Source: a virus
Virus record (IMG/VR): IMGVR_UViG_3300037222_000162
Location: 1-20,907 of that record
DNA length: 20,907 nt
Direction: 5' to 3' (one strand)
Below are positions 3,024-19,947 of the stretch, piece after piece. The translations under genes and the position numbers were made by a program. The first letter of the stretch is position 1; each line of letters starts with the position of its first letter. A model generated the notes under the pieces. It was not told the DNA's origin and searched no databases. It saw only the letters and a program-made list of their open reading frames with translations.

Positions 3024-4279
3024 GGTGCCTCTACGCTCCCCGATAGCCAGCGCCAGCATATATCAAAACGATTGAGAACCCAAACCGGCTTGCCCAGGGC
3101 CGCCGCCAGGTGCGCCACGGCGGAATCAACGGTGATTACCAGGTCTAGCGCGTCAATCAACTCAGCGGTCGCCTGAAGATCATTACATTCCGGCATCGGG
3201 TCGTACCAATTCGGCAGATCGATCTTTCCGAGGTCGTGGGGTTCTTCCTTCTGAAGCGACACAAACGTCACCCCCGGAATATCCATCACCTCGGCAAAAT
3301 CAGCCGTCGCAATCGACTTCTTGCGCTGCATGGTCATGGCGATCACGAAGCTGAACCGTACCCCTGACGACCAGGACACGCCGACCTTGAGGCCGGACTT
3401 CCCGGCCAGGCGTTTGCGCCAGTCAGAGCCATCCGCCTTGAGGTAGCCGCCCGTGCTCGGAATCGTCTCCAGCGTGGTTCCGAAAACCGCCCCCAGGCTC
3501 ATCATCGGGCAATGCAGGTCAAATTCCGGCTTCTGGGGGGCATCGCGGTCAATGACGGGGTGACCAAACTGCTCCAATAGCCTCATGAGCGGCCTGGGAG
3601 CCTCAAGGGTGAGGTTCAAGCCCTTCATCCGGGTCAGGTAGCGGCAGAACTGCAGATTGTCCCCCAGGCCCTGCTCGCAGTAAACCAGAATACGCTTATC
3701 GGTCTGTTGCCCGGTCCAGAGCGGCTGCTTGAAACGGTAGGGGCCTAAGACCGCCCTGGTTCCGAAACGCCACTCGTGCTCCATGAAGCCCTCGGGATAG
3801 TTTCCGAGCGAGAGTAGCGATAATCCTTTATTGTAGTGGGCGTCGCCAGAGCTCATGTTAAGGGCCAGGGCCTCATCGGCATCAGCTATCGACTCTTCCA
3901 GCTTTCCGAGGGCGTGCAGAATAACGGCGCGGCCCAGGCGGGCGGACTCATTAGTCGGTTCCAGGGCCAACGCCTGGCTGTATTCGTGGATAGCCTCGGC
4001 GTATTTTCCGAGCCATCCGAAGACAATGCCACGATTAACATAAGCGCCATAGCTGGTAGCGTCACAGGCGATGGCCTGCCCGTAGCTGTCCAGGGCCTCG
4101 GGTAGTTTGTAAAGAGCTTGTAAAGCCACGCCCCGGTTGACCCAGAGGTCGGCGCGGGGGGTATGCTCCAGGATCAGGTCGTACGCCGCCACCGCCTCAG
4201 CAAACCGGCGTTTGTGCACCAGCTTGTGGGCGATGACGGCGGGGTCGGAAACAATCCTGGAAACGTCTAAACCGCTCAC
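2801..4279 (-). CDS. TPR-repeat glycosyltransferase (GT9-like)
   Basis: About 492 residues. The first ~185 form tetratricopeptide repeats (AEAVAAYDLILEHTP, PEALDSYGQAIA, AEAIHEYSQALALEP, EESIADADEALAL). The rest resembles the ADP-heptose:LPS heptosyltransferase-like (GT9) fold, with EQGLGDNLQF, LDLVITVDSAVAHLAAALGKPVW and CWRWLSGSVEAPWYD. Such TPR-GT9 proteins transfer sugars to protein or surface glycans. I choose the GTG at 4279, which makes a GTGA overlap with the HNH stop and has CGGAA upstream. An ATG at 4315 is the longer alternative. The last ~45 residues look out of frame (see the overlapping frame). It is paired with the FkbM methyltransferase. Confidence 0.85.
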   Translation of the reverse strand: MSGLDVSRIVSDPAVIAHKLVHKRRFAEAVAAYDLILEHTPRADLWVNRGVALQALYKLPEALDSYGQAIACDATSYGAYVNRGIVFGWLGKYAEAIHEYSQALALEPTNESARLGRAVILHALGKLEESIADADEALALNMSSGDAHYNKGLSLLSLGNYPEGFMEHEWRFGTRAVLGPYRFKQPLWTGQQTDKRILVYCEQGLGDNLQFCRYLTRMKGLNLTLEAPRPLMRLLEQFGHPVIDRDAPQKPEFDLHCPMMSLGAVFGTTLETIPSTGGYLKADGSDWRKRLAGKSGLKVGVSWSSGVRFSFVIAMTMQRKKSIATADFAEVMDIPGVTFVSLQKEEPHDLGKIDLPNWYDPMPECNDLQATAELIDALDLVITVDSAVAHLAAALGKPVWVLNRFDICWRWLSGSVEAPWYDSAKIYRQHQPMDWSNVLASVKQDLVTLTRASLPRMYRGGPRTLKSFGDLATLQWNSMPTAPPAPISGAVT

Positions 4280-5025
4280 GCAGCAAGTTCCGTGCAGGTG
4301 AACTGTTGCGGACATTTATGCGGACATTTATGCGGACATCCGCCATGGCCTTCGGCGAAATTGCAGTTCATGCAGAGCAATTGGTAAATGTCTTTGGGAT
4401 AGCCCTGCTGCTTAAGCCAGAGATAAAAATAAGTACCCTTATGTCTGGTTTCGTCTGCACGGCGTTGACCATTGATATGGTCAATGGATAGGAACTCCAA
4501 GGCGGTTTCATCACAACAGACACACTTACCACCGTAAGCAGTAATGACGTTTTGCTTGGCAGTTCTATTCCACTTCTTACGCCCCACCAAAGGTTCTGTA
4601 GGCCGCCCTTTGTGAGGGCAGTAGCCGTAACGACCATGAGAATGGTTACAACTCATGCACAAAAGTTGAAAACGATCCTTAGGAAAACCTAGTTTAGCAA
4701 CCTCACGATAGATTTCACCGCCGCCGCTACCAAGTTGCTTGTAGCCAAACTCACGACGATGAGCTGCACCATCCCCGTGAATATGATCTAGTGAGAGAAA
4801 TTGAACAGTAGTTTCACCACAACAAGCACAAGCATTGCCATAAGCATTAAGTATTTGTTTCCGTAACTTAGCTCGTGTTCGCATACCGCGACTACACGCA
4901 ATTTTAGGATTTTTCTTGCGGTATTCGCGCTCATATGCGCGAAGTATTTCACGATTTCTCGCTCGGTACTCGCGCATATAGGCTGTTTTAACTGAAGGAC
5001 TTATAGATTTTGTACCAGTAGGCAT
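4276..5025 (-). CDS. HNH-type homing endonuclease with two tandem HNH units
   Basis: A 249-residue protein. A basic N-terminus (YRARNREILRAYEREYRKKN) is followed by two copies of one HNH/zinc unit. Unit 1 spans about residues 62-139 with C66-C69, the D80-H81 pair, C123/C126 and C136PH. Unit 2 spans about 163-232 with C168-C171, D182-H183, C218/C221 and C230PH. Each unit matches the free-standing phage HNH family, which nicks or cuts DNA to spread its own gene. The gene is visibly more AT-rich than its neighbours, suggesting later insertion between a virion gene and the glycosyltransferase. Its last codons contain a short tandem repeat (CPHKCPHKCP). Confidence 0.85.
   Translation of the reverse strand: MPTGTKSISPSVKTAYMREYRARNREILRAYEREYRKKNPKIACSRGMRTRAKLRKQILNAYGNACACCGETTVQFLSLDHIHGDGAAHRREFGYKQLGSGGGEIYREVAKLGFPKDRFQLLCMSCNHSHGRYGYCPHKGRPTEPLVGRKKWNRTAKQNVITAYGGKCVCCDETALEFLSIDHINGQRRADETRHKGTYFYLWLKQQGYPKDIYQLLCMNCNFAEGHGGCPHKCPHKCPQQFTCTELAA
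4308..4339 (+). repeat. 12-bp tandem repeat at the 3' end of the HNH gene
   Basis: The unit gcggacatttat occurs twice back to back (4308-4319, 4320-4331) and is followed by a partial third copy (gcggacat). In the coding strand it adds repeated Cys-Pro-His-Lys quartets to the end of the second HNH unit. It lies beside the glycosyltransferase start, so slippage here could alter both genes' junction. Confidence 0.85.
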
Positions 5026-5049: not shown

Positions 5050-5523
5050 TCATTGTTCTGCGACGTACAGAGTTCCAGTAGCAGTAGATGTATAACCTCC
5101 GGAGCGGGTTCGCAAGGCGAGTCCAGTGGTAGCAGTAGCGGGATAAACCAGTTCTGAACCGGGAGCCGCAACCCATCGGTATGAAGCTCTTTGGTTTACA
5201 CCGACATAAAATACACTCGCACCTGTCAGGTAGGTGCTGTCGGCGGTAGAGCACGCCAGTGACACACCCGCAAACGCAGCGTCCGCAACATCCAGCGGCG
5301 AAGGCGTCACGGCGGTTGCGGAAATGGAGATCGTCACGGAAAAGCGCGAGATGTCCCATTCCATGTAGTTGTCTGCCGGGGTACCGTTGGTGCCGACCAG
5401 CACGTCGTAAACCTTGCCACGCCTCACGGTCGAACCCGCATAGACGTTAACCAGGGTCTTATAGGTACTGGATACGGCCTGCTGCGTACCGCCCAGCGAA
5501 TCAGAAGTGTAGTAGTTTGCCAT
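5050..5523 (-). CDS. Putative virion structural protein
   Basis: A 157-residue, Ser/Thr/Ala-rich beta protein (MANYYTSDSLGGTQQAVSST...). Segments such as GKVYDVLVGTNGTPADNYMEWDISR and VGVNQRASYRWVAAPGSELV resemble a conserved family I associate with phage structural modules. Its exact place in the virion (tail tube, fibre base or head) is not known to me. The ATG is preceded by AGGAG. The 138-bp leader holds a stem-loop and an 18-base box also found upstream of the decoration-like gene at 15046-15654, suggesting shared control of two virion genes. Confidence 0.75.
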   Translation of the reverse strand: MANYYTSDSLGGTQQAVSSTYKTLVNVYAGSTVRRGKVYDVLVGTNGTPADNYMEWDISRFSVTISISATAVTPSPLDVADAAFAGVSLACSTADSTYLTGASVFYVGVNQRASYRWVAAPGSELVYPATATTGLALRTRSGGYTSTATGTLYVAEQ

Positions 5524-5538
5524 TTGAATTGGCTCCTG

Positions 5539-5626
5539 TTGGGTTTCAGAAAGACCTTGAACCCAACAGCGCGCGGGTGAGATCGGAGTTTAATGGGGCA
5601 GTACTTTTCCGCAGCATGCTGGAAAG
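5539..5626 (-). promoter_or_regulatory. Leader RNA element, copy A
   Basis: The non-coding stretch before the virion gene starting at 5523. In coding-strand order it holds three parts. The first is a stem-loop (5604-5626) with stem CTTTCC/GGAAAAG around AGCATGCTGC. After a 25-nt gap comes the box ACCCGCGCGCTGTTGGGT (5561-5578). The third is a 7-bp hairpin TTGGGTT/AACCCAA (5539-5566) ending 15 bases before the ATG. Box, gap and loop match copy B at 15691-15755, and the stem differs by compensating pairs. The role is unknown; a cis-acting RNA or a protein-binding site are both possible. Confidence 0.6.
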
Positions 5627-5661
5627 AATTCAGCGTATCAAATTCATCGTCAGATACGGTG

Positions 5662-7503
5662 CTATGAACTTATATAGCAACCGCTTAACACGATAACGGC
5701 ACCATTTGCGGGCACAAAAGGTGCCGATGTTACTGAACTCCGTGGAGCAATGTAGTTGCCAGACCCGGTATAAGCGATCAATGTTATACCAGTAACTGCA
5801 GTTTCGTCCCCACTAAGAGAAGTAGAACCGGCAACATTTGTTGGAAGTGAAATATTGGTATTCGTCGTGCCCGTTCCAACATCCGTGTAGGTCACCGTTA
5901 CGTTAACACAATACAGCTTCCCAACAGCTGTATAGGTTCCGGTAGCCGTTACTGTTGTGTAGGTACCTGATCCTGGTACAACGGTGGGGGTGTAGGTAGT
6001 AGGTGCAGTATAAACTCCAAACCCTCCGGTGGTATTTGCCCCGTTGCCGAGCGCGGGGGCAACGCCAGTGCCCACGCCGGATAGATTGCCGACTGCTGGT
6101 TGTGCTTTAGTGATTACTCCGTAAGGAGTGATGCCCGTCAGGAAATTATTGCTGGCCCCTGCGTCTGGGACAACAGTCGTCCCGGTAACATCACCAGCAT
6201 TTCGATCATTAAATCTATTATAAGTTTGATCGTAGTACCAAATTCGTGTGACGCTCGCTGAGTTTACATTAAAGGGGCCGGTGAGGGCACCCTCAAAATT
6301 ATTGGCAAATACTTCGATGCCGGTCATGGCGGCAACATTTTCGCCATAACCGTACAGACATCCGTTGCCAGCACCATTCGCCACGAAATTGCCGGTAATG
6401 CTTGAGTTGCTTCCGGTGTGCCCCAAACCATCGTCAACGCTGATGATCCCATATGGATTTTGCGATGGCCCTGATGTAACGGTCCCGCAATTATTTATGG
6501 TATTGCCAGAAATGGTGGAATGCGAACCAAAATTAGAGATGCCGGCACCAGCAACGTTGTTAATTGTGTTGCTCCCGATTGTACTATAAGGCGCTCCGTT
6601 CTCGATCCCAAGAACGGCAACGCCATTCACGTCCGTCCCCACACCATTCGAAAGGTTATTTCCTACGATAGTGGCGTAGGCGCTGTTTGCTGCATCAACA
6701 TCAATTGCAATTAAAGCGCCAAATCCCGACCCATTGACAATGTTTCTAACGATGGTGGTGTACTTTCCATTGACTTCAATGATGCTGTTCTGAACATTGT
6801 TTCCAGAAATGTCTATGTTGGTCGATGTGGATAGGGTTGATGAAACTGAAATAGCCTGCGATTCAGCCGCAGTGGTTGTAGGCCGAGAAATGTCATTATT
6901 GCGGATAGCACCAGTCTGAACGCTGTTTAACGCGGCTCCTAGAGTAGTAAAATTAATGATCGTATTATTTTCAACGTAGGCATTAGTACATTGGACGCAA
7001 ACGACAACTGGATTGCTATTTGCCGAACAATTACTTCCATCGAGGGTCATGTCACTGACGGAAGTATTATCAGCATAGCGCAGCAAGAAAATTGCACACA
7101 TCGATGACCCTGATACCAATTTCAGCGTAGTACTGGACTTTCCCTGCCCTTGGTAGCTTACCCCATCCGTTCGATTAGTTTGCAGCGATAGCGTGCTCGT
7201 GACACACGATTGAGATGACGCGGGAAACTTTAAAACGGTGTGACCGCCCGCAGCCACAGCCGTATTGTAAGCTGCAACAATCAAGTCATGATTATCGGTA
7301 GATCCGTCACAAACAAGCGGAATATTAACTATCCCAACCATTTGATTTAATGTCAGATAAGCAGAGTGCCCGCCTTGAATCGTCTCAAAGGGCTCAACGC
7401 CAGTGGGCGCAGTACCTTGGGGTAATTGCAGAATAGTTACATTTGCCGCAAATACCGGCGTAAACAGCAGAAGTATACAAGCCGCTACAAACCATTTTCT
7501 CAT
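5662..7503 (-). CDS. Tailspike-like right-handed beta-helix protein with Sec signal peptide
   Basis: A 613-residue protein. Residues 1-19 (MRKWFVAACILLLFTPVFA) form a classical signal peptide with a VFA-A cleavage site. Then comes the fibre-type motif LPQGTAPTGVEPFETIQGG. From about 70 to 430 there are regular short beta repeats rich in Asn, Gly, Ser and Val (TIINF, TIVGNNLSNG, STISGNTINNCG), typical of pectate-lyase-like helices in tailspikes that bind or cut surface polysaccharide. The C-terminal domain (about 495-613, from TYTPTVVPGSGTYTT) resembles domains ending many phage fibres. The start forms an ATGA overlap with the upstream gene. A secreted signal is odd for a virion protein, so a secreted depolymerase-like role is the alternative. 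Confidence 0.8.
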   Translation of the reverse strand: MRKWFVAACILLLFTPVFAANVTILQLPQGTAPTGVEPFETIQGGHSAYLTLNQMVGIVNIPLVCDGSTDNHDLIVAAYNTAVAAGGHTVLKFPASSQSCVTSTLSLQTNRTDGVSYQGQGKSSTTLKLVSGSSMCAIFLLRYADNTSVSDMTLDGSNCSANSNPVVVCVQCTNAYVENNTIINFTTLGAALNSVQTGAIRNNDISRPTTTAAESQAISVSSTLSTSTNIDISGNNVQNSIIEVNGKYTTIVRNIVNGSGFGALIAIDVDAANSAYATIVGNNLSNGVGTDVNGVAVLGIENGAPYSTIGSNTINNVAGAGISNFGSHSTISGNTINNCGTVTSGPSQNPYGIISVDDGLGHTGSNSSITGNFVANGAGNGCLYGYGENVAAMTGIEVFANNFEGALTGPFNVNSASVTRIWYYDQTYNRFNDRNAGDVTGTTVVPDAGASNNFLTGITPYGVITKAQPAVGNLSGVGTGVAPALGNGANTTGGFGVYTAPTTYTPTVVPGSGTYTTVTATGTYTAVGKLYCVNVTVTYTDVGTGTTNTNISLPTNVAGSTSLSGDETAVTGITLIAYTGSGNYIAPRSSVTSAPFVPANGAVIVLSGCYISS

Positions 7504-14115: not shown

Positions 14116-15042
14116 TTACGAAGTCGGCGTAGAGCCGTACAAAGCACGCGGATCATTGTAGCTGAAGGAGTAACGCTCCCAGCCCTTGACCAGCAGGTTA
14201 TCGGTGGTGAAGTCCACCTGCATGTCGATCTCGAACGGTTCACGCTCAAGATACAACAAACCAGGCTGATCCGTTTTGATGTACCAGGGATAAGCCGAGG
14301 TGAAGAAGACGTTCTTGGTGTAGGAAGTAACGCCACCCGCGACCGTTCCGATCACGTTCGGATCGTTCATCGCGGTACCCGGACGAAGCTCGGCACGCAG
14401 CAACCGCTGCGCGACAGGTTCATTGTTCGGGTGAATCACCAGTTCCTTGCCGGTCGCCATCATGCGGAGGCCCGCATTGTCATAGAAACCGGTCTGGATG
14501 GAGATCATGCCGTTAAGCAGGGAAGACTCATTCAAGTCAACCTGAGTAGTTGGGGTATTGGCCCAGGTGACCGGGCCAGAACCGCCCGCCGGAAGCGGGT
14601 GATTAATCGCGAGCAGGGCAACACCGTCGCCACCCACCGTGTTGTCATAGGTGGTCGAGTTGTTGAAGACGTTAGCGCCGTAAATCTCCTTGGTCTGGGC
14701 GAACGAGCGCTGAAGACCAAGGTTGGACGGACGGAACTGCGCCTTGTAGAGGTTGTCCGCAATGGTATTACGGGTGATCGCGTAACCCAGACCAATGCCG
14801 ACATGGAGCTGGTTATAGACGAACGCTTCACCGGCCCCGTTGTCGAACTGGGTCTGACCACCGTCGTTCTTGAGCGCCGCGAGCGGCAGGAAGCGCATGG
14901 AAGCAGTGCGCTCCTGTGCCATTTCCGACTTGCCCTGATCGAACAGCTTGGGCCAGATAGCGGGCCATTGCTTGTATTCACCTGTGACGCCACGAAGACC
15001 GGGAAGAAGAAGGTCACGGACTGCTGATACGTTAATTGCCAT
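14116..15042 (-). CDS. Major capsid protein (Mu gpT-like, HK97 fold)
   Basis: A 308-residue protein (MAINVSAVRDLLLPGLRGVT...). It matches the pattern of the gpT-like major head protein group: RTASMRFLPLAALKNDGGQ early, GYAITRNTIADNLYK, a central variable loop, KELVIHPNNEPVAQRLLRAE, and the end DMQVDFTTDNLLVKGWERYS. No N-terminal protease-cleaved scaffold region is evident. It follows a decoration-like gene by three bases, the usual order for head operons, and precedes a hairpin. This is the main component of the icosahedral shell. Confidence 0.85.
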   Translation of the reverse strand: MAINVSAVRDLLLPGLRGVTGEYKQWPAIWPKLFDQGKSEMAQERTASMRFLPLAALKNDGGQTQFDNGAGEAFVYNQLHVGIGLGYAITRNTIADNLYKAQFRPSNLGLQRSFAQTKEIYGANVFNNSTTYDNTVGGDGVALLAINHPLPAGGSGPVTWANTPTTQVDLNESSLLNGMISIQTGFYDNAGLRMMATGKELVIHPNNEPVAQRLLRAELRPGTAMNDPNVIGTVAGGVTSYTKNVFFTSAYPWYIKTDQPGLLYLEREPFEIDMQVDFTTDNLLVKGWERYSFSYNDPRALYGSTPTS

Positions 15043-15045
15043 GAC

Positions 15046-15654
15046 CTAGACTCCCGCGCTGTTCTTGAACATCTGGTTGTTGAACGCGACGACGACGTTG
15101 TTGTACGCCGTCGTGATGTCCGAACCATTTGCTCCGGGTGGGGAAGTTCTGAACCCAACAACCTTAAAGGGGAGGGTAGAAGTCGTGGTCGGCGTATCAA
15201 GCGCCGCCGTGGAGATGCCAGTCGTGGTGTTACCCGAACCGACAATGATGTCAGCCGTCTGACCTAAAGCAGACTGGCCAATCGGACCAGCCGCCGCCTG
15301 AACCAGGAATTCGGCATTGGGGTCGTCGCAAACGTGCGCACTAACGTCGCCCGTAGCGTCTGAACCCGGCCAATAGTTGTTCCACACAGTCTTCTTCTGG
15401 GAGGTGCTGTAGTAGGTGCACCCCAGGAAGATGCCAACCGGAATACGGGTCGCGGTTGCGCCGTCACCCTCAGCCCACAGCTCAAGATAGCCGGTGGGGG
15501 TGGCGTAATTCGTCCGGACCAGGTCACCAAAGAAGATAGCGGTGCCATAAGTGGAAGCAATTTTATACGGAGGATTTCCTCCAGATGCGAAATTGGGCGG
15601 GCCTGAGGCCGTACCAATCTGCATGAGGCCAAAGGGGCCTGCAACGTTCGCCAT
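15046..15654 (-). CDS. Capsid decoration-like protein
   Basis: A 202-residue, Gly/Thr/Ala-rich beta protein (MANVAGPFGLMQIGTASGPP...). It has a central GIFLGCTYYSTSQKKTVWNN and an Ala/Gly-rich later half. The MANVxxPxG start and a position just upstream of the major capsid gene are typical of phage head-stabilising or decoration proteins. AAGGA lies nine bases before the ATG. The leader carries copy B of the shared RNA element and a long structured 5' region, suggesting that head gene expression is controlled from here. Confidence 0.7.
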   Translation of the reverse strand: MANVAGPFGLMQIGTASGPPNFASGGNPPYKIASTYGTAIFFGDLVRTNYATPTGYLELWAEGDGATATRIPVGIFLGCTYYSTSQKKTVWNNYWPGSDATGDVSAHVCDDPNAEFLVQAAAGPIGQSALGQTADIIVGSGNTTTGISTAALDTPTTTSTLPFKVVGFRTSPPGANGSDITTAYNNVVVAFNNQMFKNSAGV

Positions 15655-15664
15655 GGATAAGCGT

Positions 15665-15755
15665 CCTTAACTTCGGCTTAAGGAGCGGGCACCCAAAAAC
15701 GCGCGGGTAGCTCTTCAGCCTGAGGGTTTGAACGCTACCGCAGCGTGCTGGTAGC
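15665..15755 (-). promoter_or_regulatory. Leader RNA element, copy B
   Basis: In coding-strand order: stem-loop 15734-15755 (GCTACC/GGTAGC around AGCACGCTGC), a 25-nt gap, the box ACCCGCGCGTTTTTGGGT (15691-15708), then hairpin CCTTAA/TTAAGG (15665-15683) just before the ribosome binding site. The box starts 36 bases from the ATG, against 37 in copy A. The box is 16/18 identical and the stem has compensating changes. On the opposite strand the stem is followed by AGGTTTTT, so it might also end plus-strand transcripts. Confidence 0.6.
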
Positions 15756-15791
15756 AGGTTTTTAGATTAGGGAGATTTAGCTCGGGGGAAA

Positions 15792-15873
15792 CTCTGCTGA
15801 ATCAAAGTGGACCTGCTCGGCCCGGTCAGCAAAGGAGTTGAATACCTGTTTGCGGAAGCTACCGCTCAACCCC
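15792..15873 (-). promoter_or_regulatory. Structured upstream part of the head-operon leader
   Basis: Two nested folds are visible. The first has arms GGGGTTGA/TCAACTCC (15866-15873 with 15834-15841, eight pairs) around an inner GCGG/CCGC hairpin. The second has arms CTTTGCTGA/TCAGCAGAG (15826-15834 with 15792-15800, nine pairs, one G-U) around an inner GGGCC/GGTCC hairpin. No open frame covers it. It is part of a 335-bp gene-free stretch (15655-15989) and would lie in the 5' leader of the decoration and capsid message. Confidence 0.5.
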
Positions 15874-15901
15874 GAAAGACGAAATTCTAAGCTGGATTGA
15901 A

Positions 15902-15930
15902 GCTATACTTGATAACTGGAACAAGAACAA
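15902..15930 (-). promoter_or_regulatory. Possible promoter for the head operon
   Basis: On the minus strand TTGTTC (15925-15930), a 17-bp spacer, then TATAGC (15902-15907). The -35 matches TTGACA at three positions and the -10 matches TATAAT at four, so it is a moderate sigma70-like candidate. It would give a leader of about 240 bases before the decoration gene, covering all the structured elements. Confidence 0.35.
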
Positions 15931-18045: not shown

Positions 18046-18672
18046 TCACCTAAAAAGTGGCGCACGATGAACGCTCCGTTGCTGTGGAGGCTGATAAACT
18101 ACTCTCTGATGGGCTAAACACCAGGACGTTCGCCCCTCGACTTTCCGACCACAGTACAAACCCTCCCCAACTACATACCGGCACTCGGCGGGCTTTCCGT
18201 CAAAAAAAGTTAACTCGGAAATGCTGAGTGCCGCCGCTTCTTTCGCCGGTTCTACAACTAAGCTAACCTCCTCGGGGGAATAAGTTAATGGCAACTCAGT
18301 TAAGAACACTTCGCCTGCAATTTCGCCCACAATCGGATCTTTAAGCAAAGGCCAGAGTTGTGTTGACTTAACAACAGCCCCACCATTTTCAGGAACCAAC
18401 TCAGCATAAAGCTGACCTACGGACTCCGGTGTATAAGGGCGGCGCTCAATAAGCCGTACCCGAGGACGAGGCGTCTGACGCTTTTTCTCAATCAAGGTTT
18501 TACTCCTTGTGAAAACGACACCATCATGATGTCTCAGCCGGTAAAGTATACCAGCTACTTTTCCGCGCGTCAGGTTGAGTTGCTCAGCAATCAGCAGCAT
18601 CGAGACGCCTGCCTCAAAGAGCTCCTTAACCTGTTCAACCCTGGCAGGCTCCCACTGCCCAGTAAAAGTCAT
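18046..18672 (-). CDS. gcrA: GcrA-family transcription regulator
   Basis: A 208-residue protein with both halves of GcrA. The N-terminal helix-turn-helix (residues 7-46, WEPARVEQVKELFEAGVSML, IAEQLNLTRGKVAGILYRLR) binds DNA. The C-terminal segment (C164, C174, C185 and H188, ending HQRVVYQP) matches the GcrA zinc and sigma70-contacting region. Cellular GcrA activates sigma70 promoters carrying methylated GANTC and controls the cell cycle in Alphaproteobacteria. A phage copy could redirect host RNA polymerase or cell-cycle timing. AGGAAGG precedes the ATG. A TATAAT lies upstream, without a clear -35. The linker is longer than in short cellular forms. Confidence 0.85.
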   Translation of the reverse strand: MTFTGQWEPARVEQVKELFEAGVSMLLIAEQLNLTRGKVAGILYRLRHHDGVVFTRSKTLIEKKRQTPRPRVRLIERRPYTPESVGQLYAELVPENGGAVVKSTQLWPLLKDPIVGEIAGEVFLTELPLTYSPEEVSLVVEPAKEAAALSISELTFFDGKPAECRYVVGEGLYCGRKVEGRTSWCLAHQRVVYQPPQQRSVHRAPLFR

Positions 18673-18707: not shown

Positions 18708-18857
18708 TTAGACCCGCTCCTCGTCCGTAATTGTACCGGGAACGATCCAGTAAGAATAACTAGGCCACCCGGAATAGCCATAATACACCATCTTGCAGAA
18801 ATTTGCCCAACAGTAGTCAGGTTTACCGTAGATGTTCATGCTTTCTGTAAAAGCCAC
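18708..18857 (-). CDS. Small aromatic-rich protein (49 residues), GTG start
   Basis: A 49-residue protein unusually rich in Tyr and Trp (NIYGKPDYCWANFC, then VYYGYSGWPSYSYWIVPG). The GTG at 18857 shares a base with the phosphatase stop (TAGTG) and has GGAAGGGA upstream. An internal ATG at 18839 lacks such a site. The acidic tail is DEERV. The family is not recognised; the small size and aromatic content fit a protein-binding inhibitor type, but that is only a guess. Confidence 0.5.
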   Translation of the reverse strand: MAFTESMNIYGKPDYCWANFCKMVYYGYSGWPSYSYWIVPGTITDEERV

Positions 18858-19297
18858 TAAAAATTCCCTTCCTGCACTTGGGCACACATCAGCCCTGCTT
18901 CACGCCATGCCTTAACTACGGCATCCCGGTCGTCAAAAACAAAAAGTGGTGTGTAGCCGTCCGCTAATATCTGCGCCAACAGTTCGATCTTGATGACGTA
19001 GTCGTCCCGGTGATCGCCCTCTTTTCGCATGTAGAGCGCGCCATCCGGCAGATTGTAAGCCGCTAACCAGCGCAATGTGGCACGGCGGCATTCCGAGGAA
19101 CGGCCCGAGACGTAAACAATCAACTTGCCGGAATTAGCGAGGTCCTGCGCCAGGGTAATTACGGGCAGAATAGGCTTATCGCCTTCTACCTCGGAAAAGA
19201 ACGCTTTCCAGTCCTTGGGCGAACCCTGAATATAATGGAGCCGATGAGCATTATCTGCCACCGTGCCATCCAGGTCAAATAGGTAACAAGGCTTCAC
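18857..19297 (-). CDS. HAD-superfamily phosphatase, polynucleotide 3'-phosphatase-like
   Basis: A 146-residue protein with the full HAD motif set: FDLDGTVAD (nucleophile D8, acid D10), YVSGRSS (motif II), the motif III lysine in VIKIELL, and VFDDRDAVVKAW (motif IV). The sequence around DNAHRLHYI and MRKEGDHRDDY follows the pattern of the phosphatase half of phage T4-type polynucleotide kinase (Pnk). That enzyme removes 3'-phosphates during RNA or DNA end repair. The kinase half is absent here, so it works alone or with a kinase elsewhere. A general nucleotidase role is the alternative. Confidence 0.8.
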   Translation of the reverse strand: MKPCYLFDLDGTVADNAHRLHYIQGSPKDWKAFFSEVEGDKPILPVITLAQDLANSGKLIVYVSGRSSECRRATLRWLAAYNLPDGALYMRKEGDHRDDYVIKIELLAQILADGYTPLFVFDDRDAVVKAWREAGLMCAQVQEGNF

Positions 19298-19538: not shown

Positions 19539-19569
19539 TGCCTATCCGGTTATCACCCAAAGCCACTAG
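19539..19569 (+). repeat. Left inverted repeat of the DUF6527-like cassette
   Basis: The 31-base sequence tgcctatccggttatcaccc plus aaagccactag is the reverse complement of 19917-19947 at 28 of 31 positions. The stop codon of the enclosed gene (19566-19568) falls inside it. Confidence 0.8.
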
Positions 19570-19913
19570 CATTTGCTCCACTCGCCCTTTGTGAGATATC
19601 CATGCCAGCCATCGCTTTCGGACTGCCCTGTTTTGTCGCTGATCGACGGCGTAATCGTAAGAGTTCCATCGGGCTCTTCCATGAAGACGTGAGGCGGCGC
19701 TGCAACGTATTGCCAGCTTCGCGCGCGACGCGGCGCGTCCGGGTCGTGTGCATTCGGCTTGAGCAAGAACACGCATGGGCGGTCCCCGGCGTAGCCAAGG
19801 ATTGGCCCCAAATAGTCGCCAGGCTGTTCCAGCAAGGTCGTCACCGATCTGTCGTCGCGCGCACTAAACTCTTGCTCAGTCGCCGCCGGAATTGGAATGC
19901 GTCGTCCCTTCAT
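19566..19913 (-). CDS. DUF6527-like protein in an inverted-repeat cassette
   Basis: A 115-residue protein. The C-terminal half (FMEEPDGTLTITPSISDKTG, then SDGWHGYLTKGEWSKC) resembles the DUF6527 family, often mislabelled ammonia monooxygenase, with its TxPSI and WHGYL signature. The first half (RRIPIPAATEQEFSARDDRS) is variable. It is more GC-rich than its neighbours, and 31-bp inverted repeats flank it almost exactly. It therefore looks like an acquired cassette. The ribosome binding site is weak. The biochemical role is unknown. Confidence 0.6.
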   Translation of the reverse strand: MKGRRIPIPAATEQEFSARDDRSVTTLLEQPGDYLGPILGYAGDRPCVFLLKPNAHDPDAPRRARSWQYVAAPPHVFMEEPDGTLTITPSISDKTGQSESDGWHGYLTKGEWSKC

Positions 19914-19916
19914 GAT

Positions 19917-19947
19917 CTAGTCTCTTTGGTTGATAACCGGATAGGCA
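19917..19947 (+). repeat. Right inverted repeat of the DUF6527-like cassette
   Basis: The 31 bases ctagtctctttggttgataa plus ccggataggca match the reverse complement of 19539-19569 at 28 of 31 positions; the outer 23 bases differ at only one. It lies three bases upstream of the ATG of the enclosed gene, so it forms its leader. Confidence 0.8.

Follow-up and report, generated by a model that had tools for sequence, protein, structure and literature searches.

The window analyzed here is a 20,907-nt stretch of viral DNA (IMG/VR record IMGVR_UViG_3300037222_000162) in which what looks like a single leader element stands before two different virion genes. Does this element act as an RNA or as a protein-binding site in the DNA, and what might it do for the phage? 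The positions originally predicted for its two copies, A (5539-5626) and B (15665-15755), are correct, and both copies are on the minus strand.

The resemblance between the copies was examined at the level of two segments. The predicted box of 18 bases is indeed identical at 16 of 18 positions between 5561-5578 (copy A) and 15691-15708 (copy B), and the core CCAGCAYGCTGCGG at 13 of 14; the core-to-box distance is 44 in copy A and 43 in copy B. When the 14-base core and the 18-base box were scored jointly, the copies agreed at 29 of 32 positions, as against a maximum of 22 in 60 order-1 Markov windows and 20 on the opposite strand. Additionally, we ran a loose composite pattern with the stems left out (AGCAYGCTGC-N-ACCCGCGCG) on 2.9 million IMG/VR contigs and obtained 37 matches, apparently in coding sequence. 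Because neither the stem of the stem-loop nor the box half TTGGGT was present at any of the 37, the pair in the window is not a chance product.

Parts of the predicted geometry had to be redrawn. The stem does pair in both copies, but the 3′ arm of copy A reads GGAAAAG rather than GGAAAG, which makes its stem TTTCC/GGAAA plus a C-G pair over a bulged A; the proposed gap of 25 bases holds if it is counted from this longer arm. The distances of 37 and 36 bases to the start codons are right as numbers, but they are measured to the ATG from the 3′ edge of the box and not from its start. What had been described as a 10-base loop, AGCAYGCTGC, is better drawn in both copies as CC-A-GC-AYGCT-GC-GG, with the A bulged and AYGCT forming a pentaloop. 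The box is itself a hairpin, with ACCC...GGGT enclosed by GAGC/GCTC in copy B and by GATC/GGTC in copy A. Predicted folds place the Shine-Dalgarno (SD) sequence in or beside a hairpin in both copies.

To place these structures, we turned to the leaders of related phages. A scan with the capsid protein yielded 80 loci, approximately 33 of them close. In about 30 close relatives, the leader of the gene homologous to the 202-aa gene downstream of copy B carries an array of hairpins, H1 to H5, with the pentaloop RNGCY closed by a C-G pair. The stem-loop of copy B corresponds to H4 of this array and the box to H5. A direct look for both window motifs in the relatives found none, because the stems differ. 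In the close relatives L016-L018 and L028, the array is kept with different loops and H4 was not recognized.

The pairing itself is well conserved. In 18 sequences of H4, 96.8% of cells are paired and six of seven pairs have changed on both sides (slid controls, 31-65%), while in 17 sequences of H1, 86.7% of cells are paired and eight of nine pairs show two-sided changes; the segments of both hairpins and the entries of the loop table were marked out manually, a procedure that favors pairing. For H4 and H5 together, 92.9% of cells are paired in nine sequences, and H5 shows little covariation in alignment A7. When the leader is folded as a whole, the structure of lowest energy often contains other pairings instead. 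Among the 19 non-Watson-Crick cells of H4, 15 are G-U, which fits pairing in the coding-sense (mRNA) strand. With covariation above that of shuffled and slid controls, and on the expressed strand, the leader can be classed as a conserved structured RNA, and the original reading of the element as a functional RNA is borne out by homologous leaders that keep the stem through many two-sided changes.

In most of the relatives' leaders, about 10-14 nt separate the end of the best -10-like hexamer from H1 (range 7-25). These hexamers are individually weak, with a combined p of 2e-5, and their predicted position suggests that the leader begins at the transcript start. Pairing of the SD sequence in the closest relatives (CCUC/GGGG) was seen by eye only. 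In L007, L010, L011, and L013, the 202-aa gene is tandemly duplicated before the capsid gene, and the RNA leader stands on the first copy only.

The loops of a genome belong together. Among the leaders before the 202-aa gene, we found 25 pairs of hairpins with the same loop and different stems, some of them counted under two loop lengths, against 0.1 expected. Loop identity is 0.76 within a genome and 0.69 between genomes, a difference matched in none of 5000 permutations. For example, most hairpins of L030 have GGGCC-type loops and most of those of L009 have GCGCUA loops. Since the loops of one genome are alike and shift in concert from genome to genome, they point to one trans-acting ligand, recognition by which would produce such likeness. 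Loop-loop pairing is a possible alternative, as many loops hold a palindrome.

A similar design with another loop is found in more distant relatives, whose capsid is approximately 61% identical. We call them the aquatic clade, "aquatic" and "soil" being working labels rather than established sample origins; MW202675 is an annotated member. In their leaders, the eight-base loop CCCGGYGY caps two hairpins spaced by about 40 nt, and these are followed by a linker, a hairpin over the SD sequence, and the ATG. In this last hairpin (c), CCUCC pairs with the SD sequence GGAG, and the pairing is conserved. One aquatic hairpin used as a search pattern recovered at least 120 stretches, and 77 of the 79 loci analyzed are directly (19-33 nt) before a homologue of the 202-aa gene. 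The other hairpin shows many two-sided stem changes, its stems having been chosen as best fits so that full pairing is partly by construction. A scan of genome contigs with the aquatic hairpin returned four MAG contigs of unrelated phyla, which we read as phage contigs, and three Microvirga matches without leader-like context, from which no host is inferred.

Some further observations were made in these leaders. A tRNA gene lies upstream of the capsid leader in two aquatic phages (L180:5153-5226, immediately upstream, and L078:8925-8996). After hairpin b comes GAUGAUGG; the GAUGG within it is a possible pairing partner of the conserved CCGUC that directly precedes the start codon. The stretch after this hairpin also contains an AUG, which starts a frame of three codons in some genomes (L058, L061). 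The linker (e.g., in L194) often has CCCGG, the same letters as in both loops, and might be a third contact or a kissing site.

Back in the window, copy B forms the end of a structured 5′ leader (15655..15910, minus strand, as are all features of both leaders) that precedes the head operon, that is, the 202-aa gene at 15046-15654 and then the major capsid protein (MCP) at 14116-15042. The latter matches phrog_371 weakly and is 61% identical to an annotated major capsid protein. In the relatives, the hairpin array is found at the same place. H4 (GCTACC-A-GC-ACGCT-GC-GGTAGC, 15734..15755), whose pairing covaries in alignment A4, is followed by H5 (ACCC-GCGCGTTTTT-GGGT, 15683..15713; -11.1 kcal/mol), at the position of the relatives' H5, and by a hairpin over the SD sequence AAGGA (CCTTAA-GCCGAAG-TTAAGG, 15665..15683; -7.7 kcal/mol) in the role of aquatic hairpin c. 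Farther upstream, position and a weak resemblance to the relatives' H1 suggest a possible H1 at 15865..15895 (CCAGCTT...GGGGTTGAG), and a putative weak sigma70-like promoter, TTGTTC-17-TATAGC, was read by eye at 15902..15930. A simple promoter scan of the window found none there or elsewhere, and a terminator scan gave two terminator-like matches, which is the chance level.

Model R1, based on nine relatives with the window left out, matched the leader at 15663-15792 with 13.6 bits (E 0.03; E 0.64 in a larger search). With model R3, from which the window was also left out, the best match in the window was H4 of copy B (17.6 bits, E 0.017). These weak scores, together with position, suggest that copy B belongs to the family.

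Copy A occupies the leader of the 157-aa gene (5050-5523), an intergenic stretch (5524..5661) between the stop codon of a 613-aa beta-helix gene (5662-5664) and the ATG at 5523. It comprises H4 (CTTTCC-A-GC-ATGCT-GC-GGAAAAG, 5604..5626) and H5 (ACCC-GCGCGCTGTT-GGGT, 5553..5584; -8.6 kcal/mol). A rival hairpin, CTGTTGGGTT/AACCCAACAG (5536..5569; -18.1 kcal/mol), shares the 3′ half of the box, touches the SD sequence AGGAG (5533-5537), and is mutually exclusive with H5. A promoter-like -10 may be present in copy A as well, namely a possible extended one (TGCTATATA, 5671..5679) read by eye and not returned by the formal scan, and so may an H1-like hairpin (ACC-GTATC...GATAC-GCTGAA, 5635..5660; -5.4 kcal/mol) that would start 10 nt after it, as in the relatives. 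Immediately downstream of the 157-aa gene, a 249-aa protein (4276-5025, minus strand) has a repeated Cys/His motif resembling two HNH-type zinc modules.

Copy A was not found by R1 or R3, and R2, used for its H4 part only, recovered no more than its H4, with a chance-level score (7.2 bits, E 3.3); copy A is therefore assigned to the family by its match to copy B. The two copies share the bulged A in H4 and a ten-base GCGCGNNNTT loop in H5, a combination seen in no relative examined. Judged by this match, copy A is a real second H4-H5 unit with the quirks of its own genome. Phage records contained no nucleotide similarity to it. We fetched 50 relatives of the 157-aa gene, and such a hairpin array was absent from the leaders that could be read, which were a part of them; likewise, two 157-aa homologues near capsid loci have no element in front. 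As far as sampled, copy A thus appears to be an addition of this lineage.

This bears on how often the element occurs in one genome. Whole-record searches with R1 and R3 gave one strong match per genome, at the leader of the capsid operon, and a genome-wide count of RNGCY hairpins showed clusters at the capsid leader only, with numbers elsewhere near chance. Further copies with more covariation, which were to support the original reading, do exist in related phages, at the capsid operon. Placement before two virion genes holds true for this window, but in the other genomes searched the element stands before the capsid operon only. So far, coordination of two operons is therefore specific to this lineage.

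What, then, could the leader do? It is an RNA whose pairing is conserved on the coding strand, it has a fixed place before the capsid operon, and its loop types are shared within a genome. We consider it somewhat probable that it is a cis-acting structured mRNA leader that controls translation of virion operons through a trans-acting factor reading the loops; what the ligand is, which way the control works, and that translation is the step controlled are our inferences. Transcription would start just upstream of the first hairpin, and the leader would fold into several hairpins of one genome-specific loop type, followed by a structure hiding the ribosome-binding site of the first gene. The repeated loops would be read by a factor, most likely a phage-encoded RNA-binding protein and possibly a virion protein giving feedback. 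This factor would shift the leader between states with the SD sequence hidden and free, and thereby adjust the timing or the ratio of head-protein synthesis. Since the last two hairpins precede the 157-aa gene of the tail region too in this phage, that gene would come under the same control. Translational control is favored because hairpins of the aquatic clade and of copy B conceal the SD sequence, and because the hairpin touching it in copy A excludes H5; sequestration of the SD sequence by conserved pairing is clear in the aquatic clade only, the window offering single examples.

Processive antitermination, in which the leader RNA would bind host factors or RNA polymerase, as the put RNA of HK022 and the lambda nut sites do, and so carry transcription through to the end of the long virion operon, is unlikely in our opinion. 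It would suit an element that heads the virion operon with H1 at the predicted 5′ end of the transcript, and the loops shared within a genome recall the pairing logic of boxB and N; however, it leaves the SD hairpins unexplained, no boxA-like motif was recognized by eye, and copy A lies 10 kb downstream, inside a run of virion genes. We give still less credence to a role in mRNA stability or processing, with 5′ hairpins that either protect the capsid mRNA against RNases or serve as a cleavage site for one. Such a role would agree with stable hairpins at the start of an mRNA expected to be very abundant, but a mere stabilizer needs neither a conserved loop sequence nor loops that change together.

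A site in the DNA, where palindromes would be bound by a phage regulator or form cruciforms, seems highly improbable, even if loops often hold short palindromes (GCGC, CCGG) and a promoter adjoins the leader. The non-Watson-Crick cells on the coding strand are mainly G-U, stem sequences vary freely while the spacing between arms is kept, and the loop palindrome is lost in many genomes (GCGCC, ACGCU, GUACU, GGGCC), which speaks against the palindromic protein-binding site offered by the original prediction. An origin of one copy as a recent local duplicate of the other, with copy A lacking a function of its own, is similarly doubtful, about as much as the stability role. No other sampled genome has the element before its 157-aa gene, as such a duplicate would lead one to expect, but a recent idle copy would be alike throughout or decay, whereas A and B have almost nothing in common in their stems, linker, and flanks and yet keep pairing, loops, and bulge.

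The element has partial parallels in known systems. At the curated threshold, Rfam 15 gave no RNA-leader match in the window, the soil relatives, or the aquatic clade, and a relaxed search gave chance-level matches only. The titles and abstracts returned by paper searches outside subscription journals and preprints contained no description of it either, in agreement with the earlier view that no such motif had been described. In lambdoid nut sites, N binds a boxB hairpin with a GNRA-like pentaloop. Like them, the element has a short hairpin whose pentaloop is specific to the phage and which recurs at the start of more than one operon, but here each leader has several hairpins and an SD hairpin, the operons are those of virion genes, and the loops are RNGCY or CCCGGYGY rather than GNRA-like; it is thus not of the lambda type, boxA having been sought by eye only. 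The put RNA of HK022 also has tandem hairpins at the transcript start, but put sites belong to early operons and work without a phage protein, and the leaders share no sequence or Rfam match with them.

The coat-protein operators of MS2 and PP7 are comparable in having a conserved-loop hairpin with a bulged A near the ribosome-binding site of a virion operon. In contrast, the phages studied here have dsDNA, and their several hairpins lie upstream of the start codon rather than over it. Mu-gpT-DE RNA of Rfam is tied to Mu gpT-like capsid genes, and some MCP relatives here are annotated as gpT, but that RNA is located downstream of its gene and has no Rfam 15 match in the leaders. Finally, bacterial ribosomal-protein leader RNAs are likewise structured 5′ leaders of operons for particle parts with plausible product feedback, but they show no homology to this phage operon leader with its repeated same-loop hairpins.

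Other features of the window are also worth recording. A GcrA-like protein is encoded at 18046-18672 on the minus strand (PF07750, E 2e-12). GcrA is a cell-cycle transcription factor typical of alphaproteobacteria, and the domain match suggests an alphaproteobacterial host; a link between late transcription and GANTC methylation is possible. A protein with a polynucleotide kinase 3′-phosphatase domain (PF25109) lies at 18857-19297 on the minus strand. Inverted repeats of 31 nt (19539-19569 and 19917-19947, 90% complementary) flank an ORF of 115 aa (19566-19913), and this unit may be a small mobile element.

In most tailed phages, control of capsid genes is assigned to promoters and terminators. 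Here, a conserved leader RNA absent from Rfam 15 precedes the capsid operon in well over a hundred environmental contigs. It would represent a new layer of control, a handle on a new phage RNA-protein pair, and a case of joint loop evolution with drifting stems. More tentatively, it may belong to a widespread and so far undescribed family of RNA operators that governs the synthesis of head proteins in these tailed phages. Each phage would have its own loop "code," recognized by a phage protein that evolves with it, and lineages may recruit a further virion gene by adding a hairpin pair in front of it, as in copy A.
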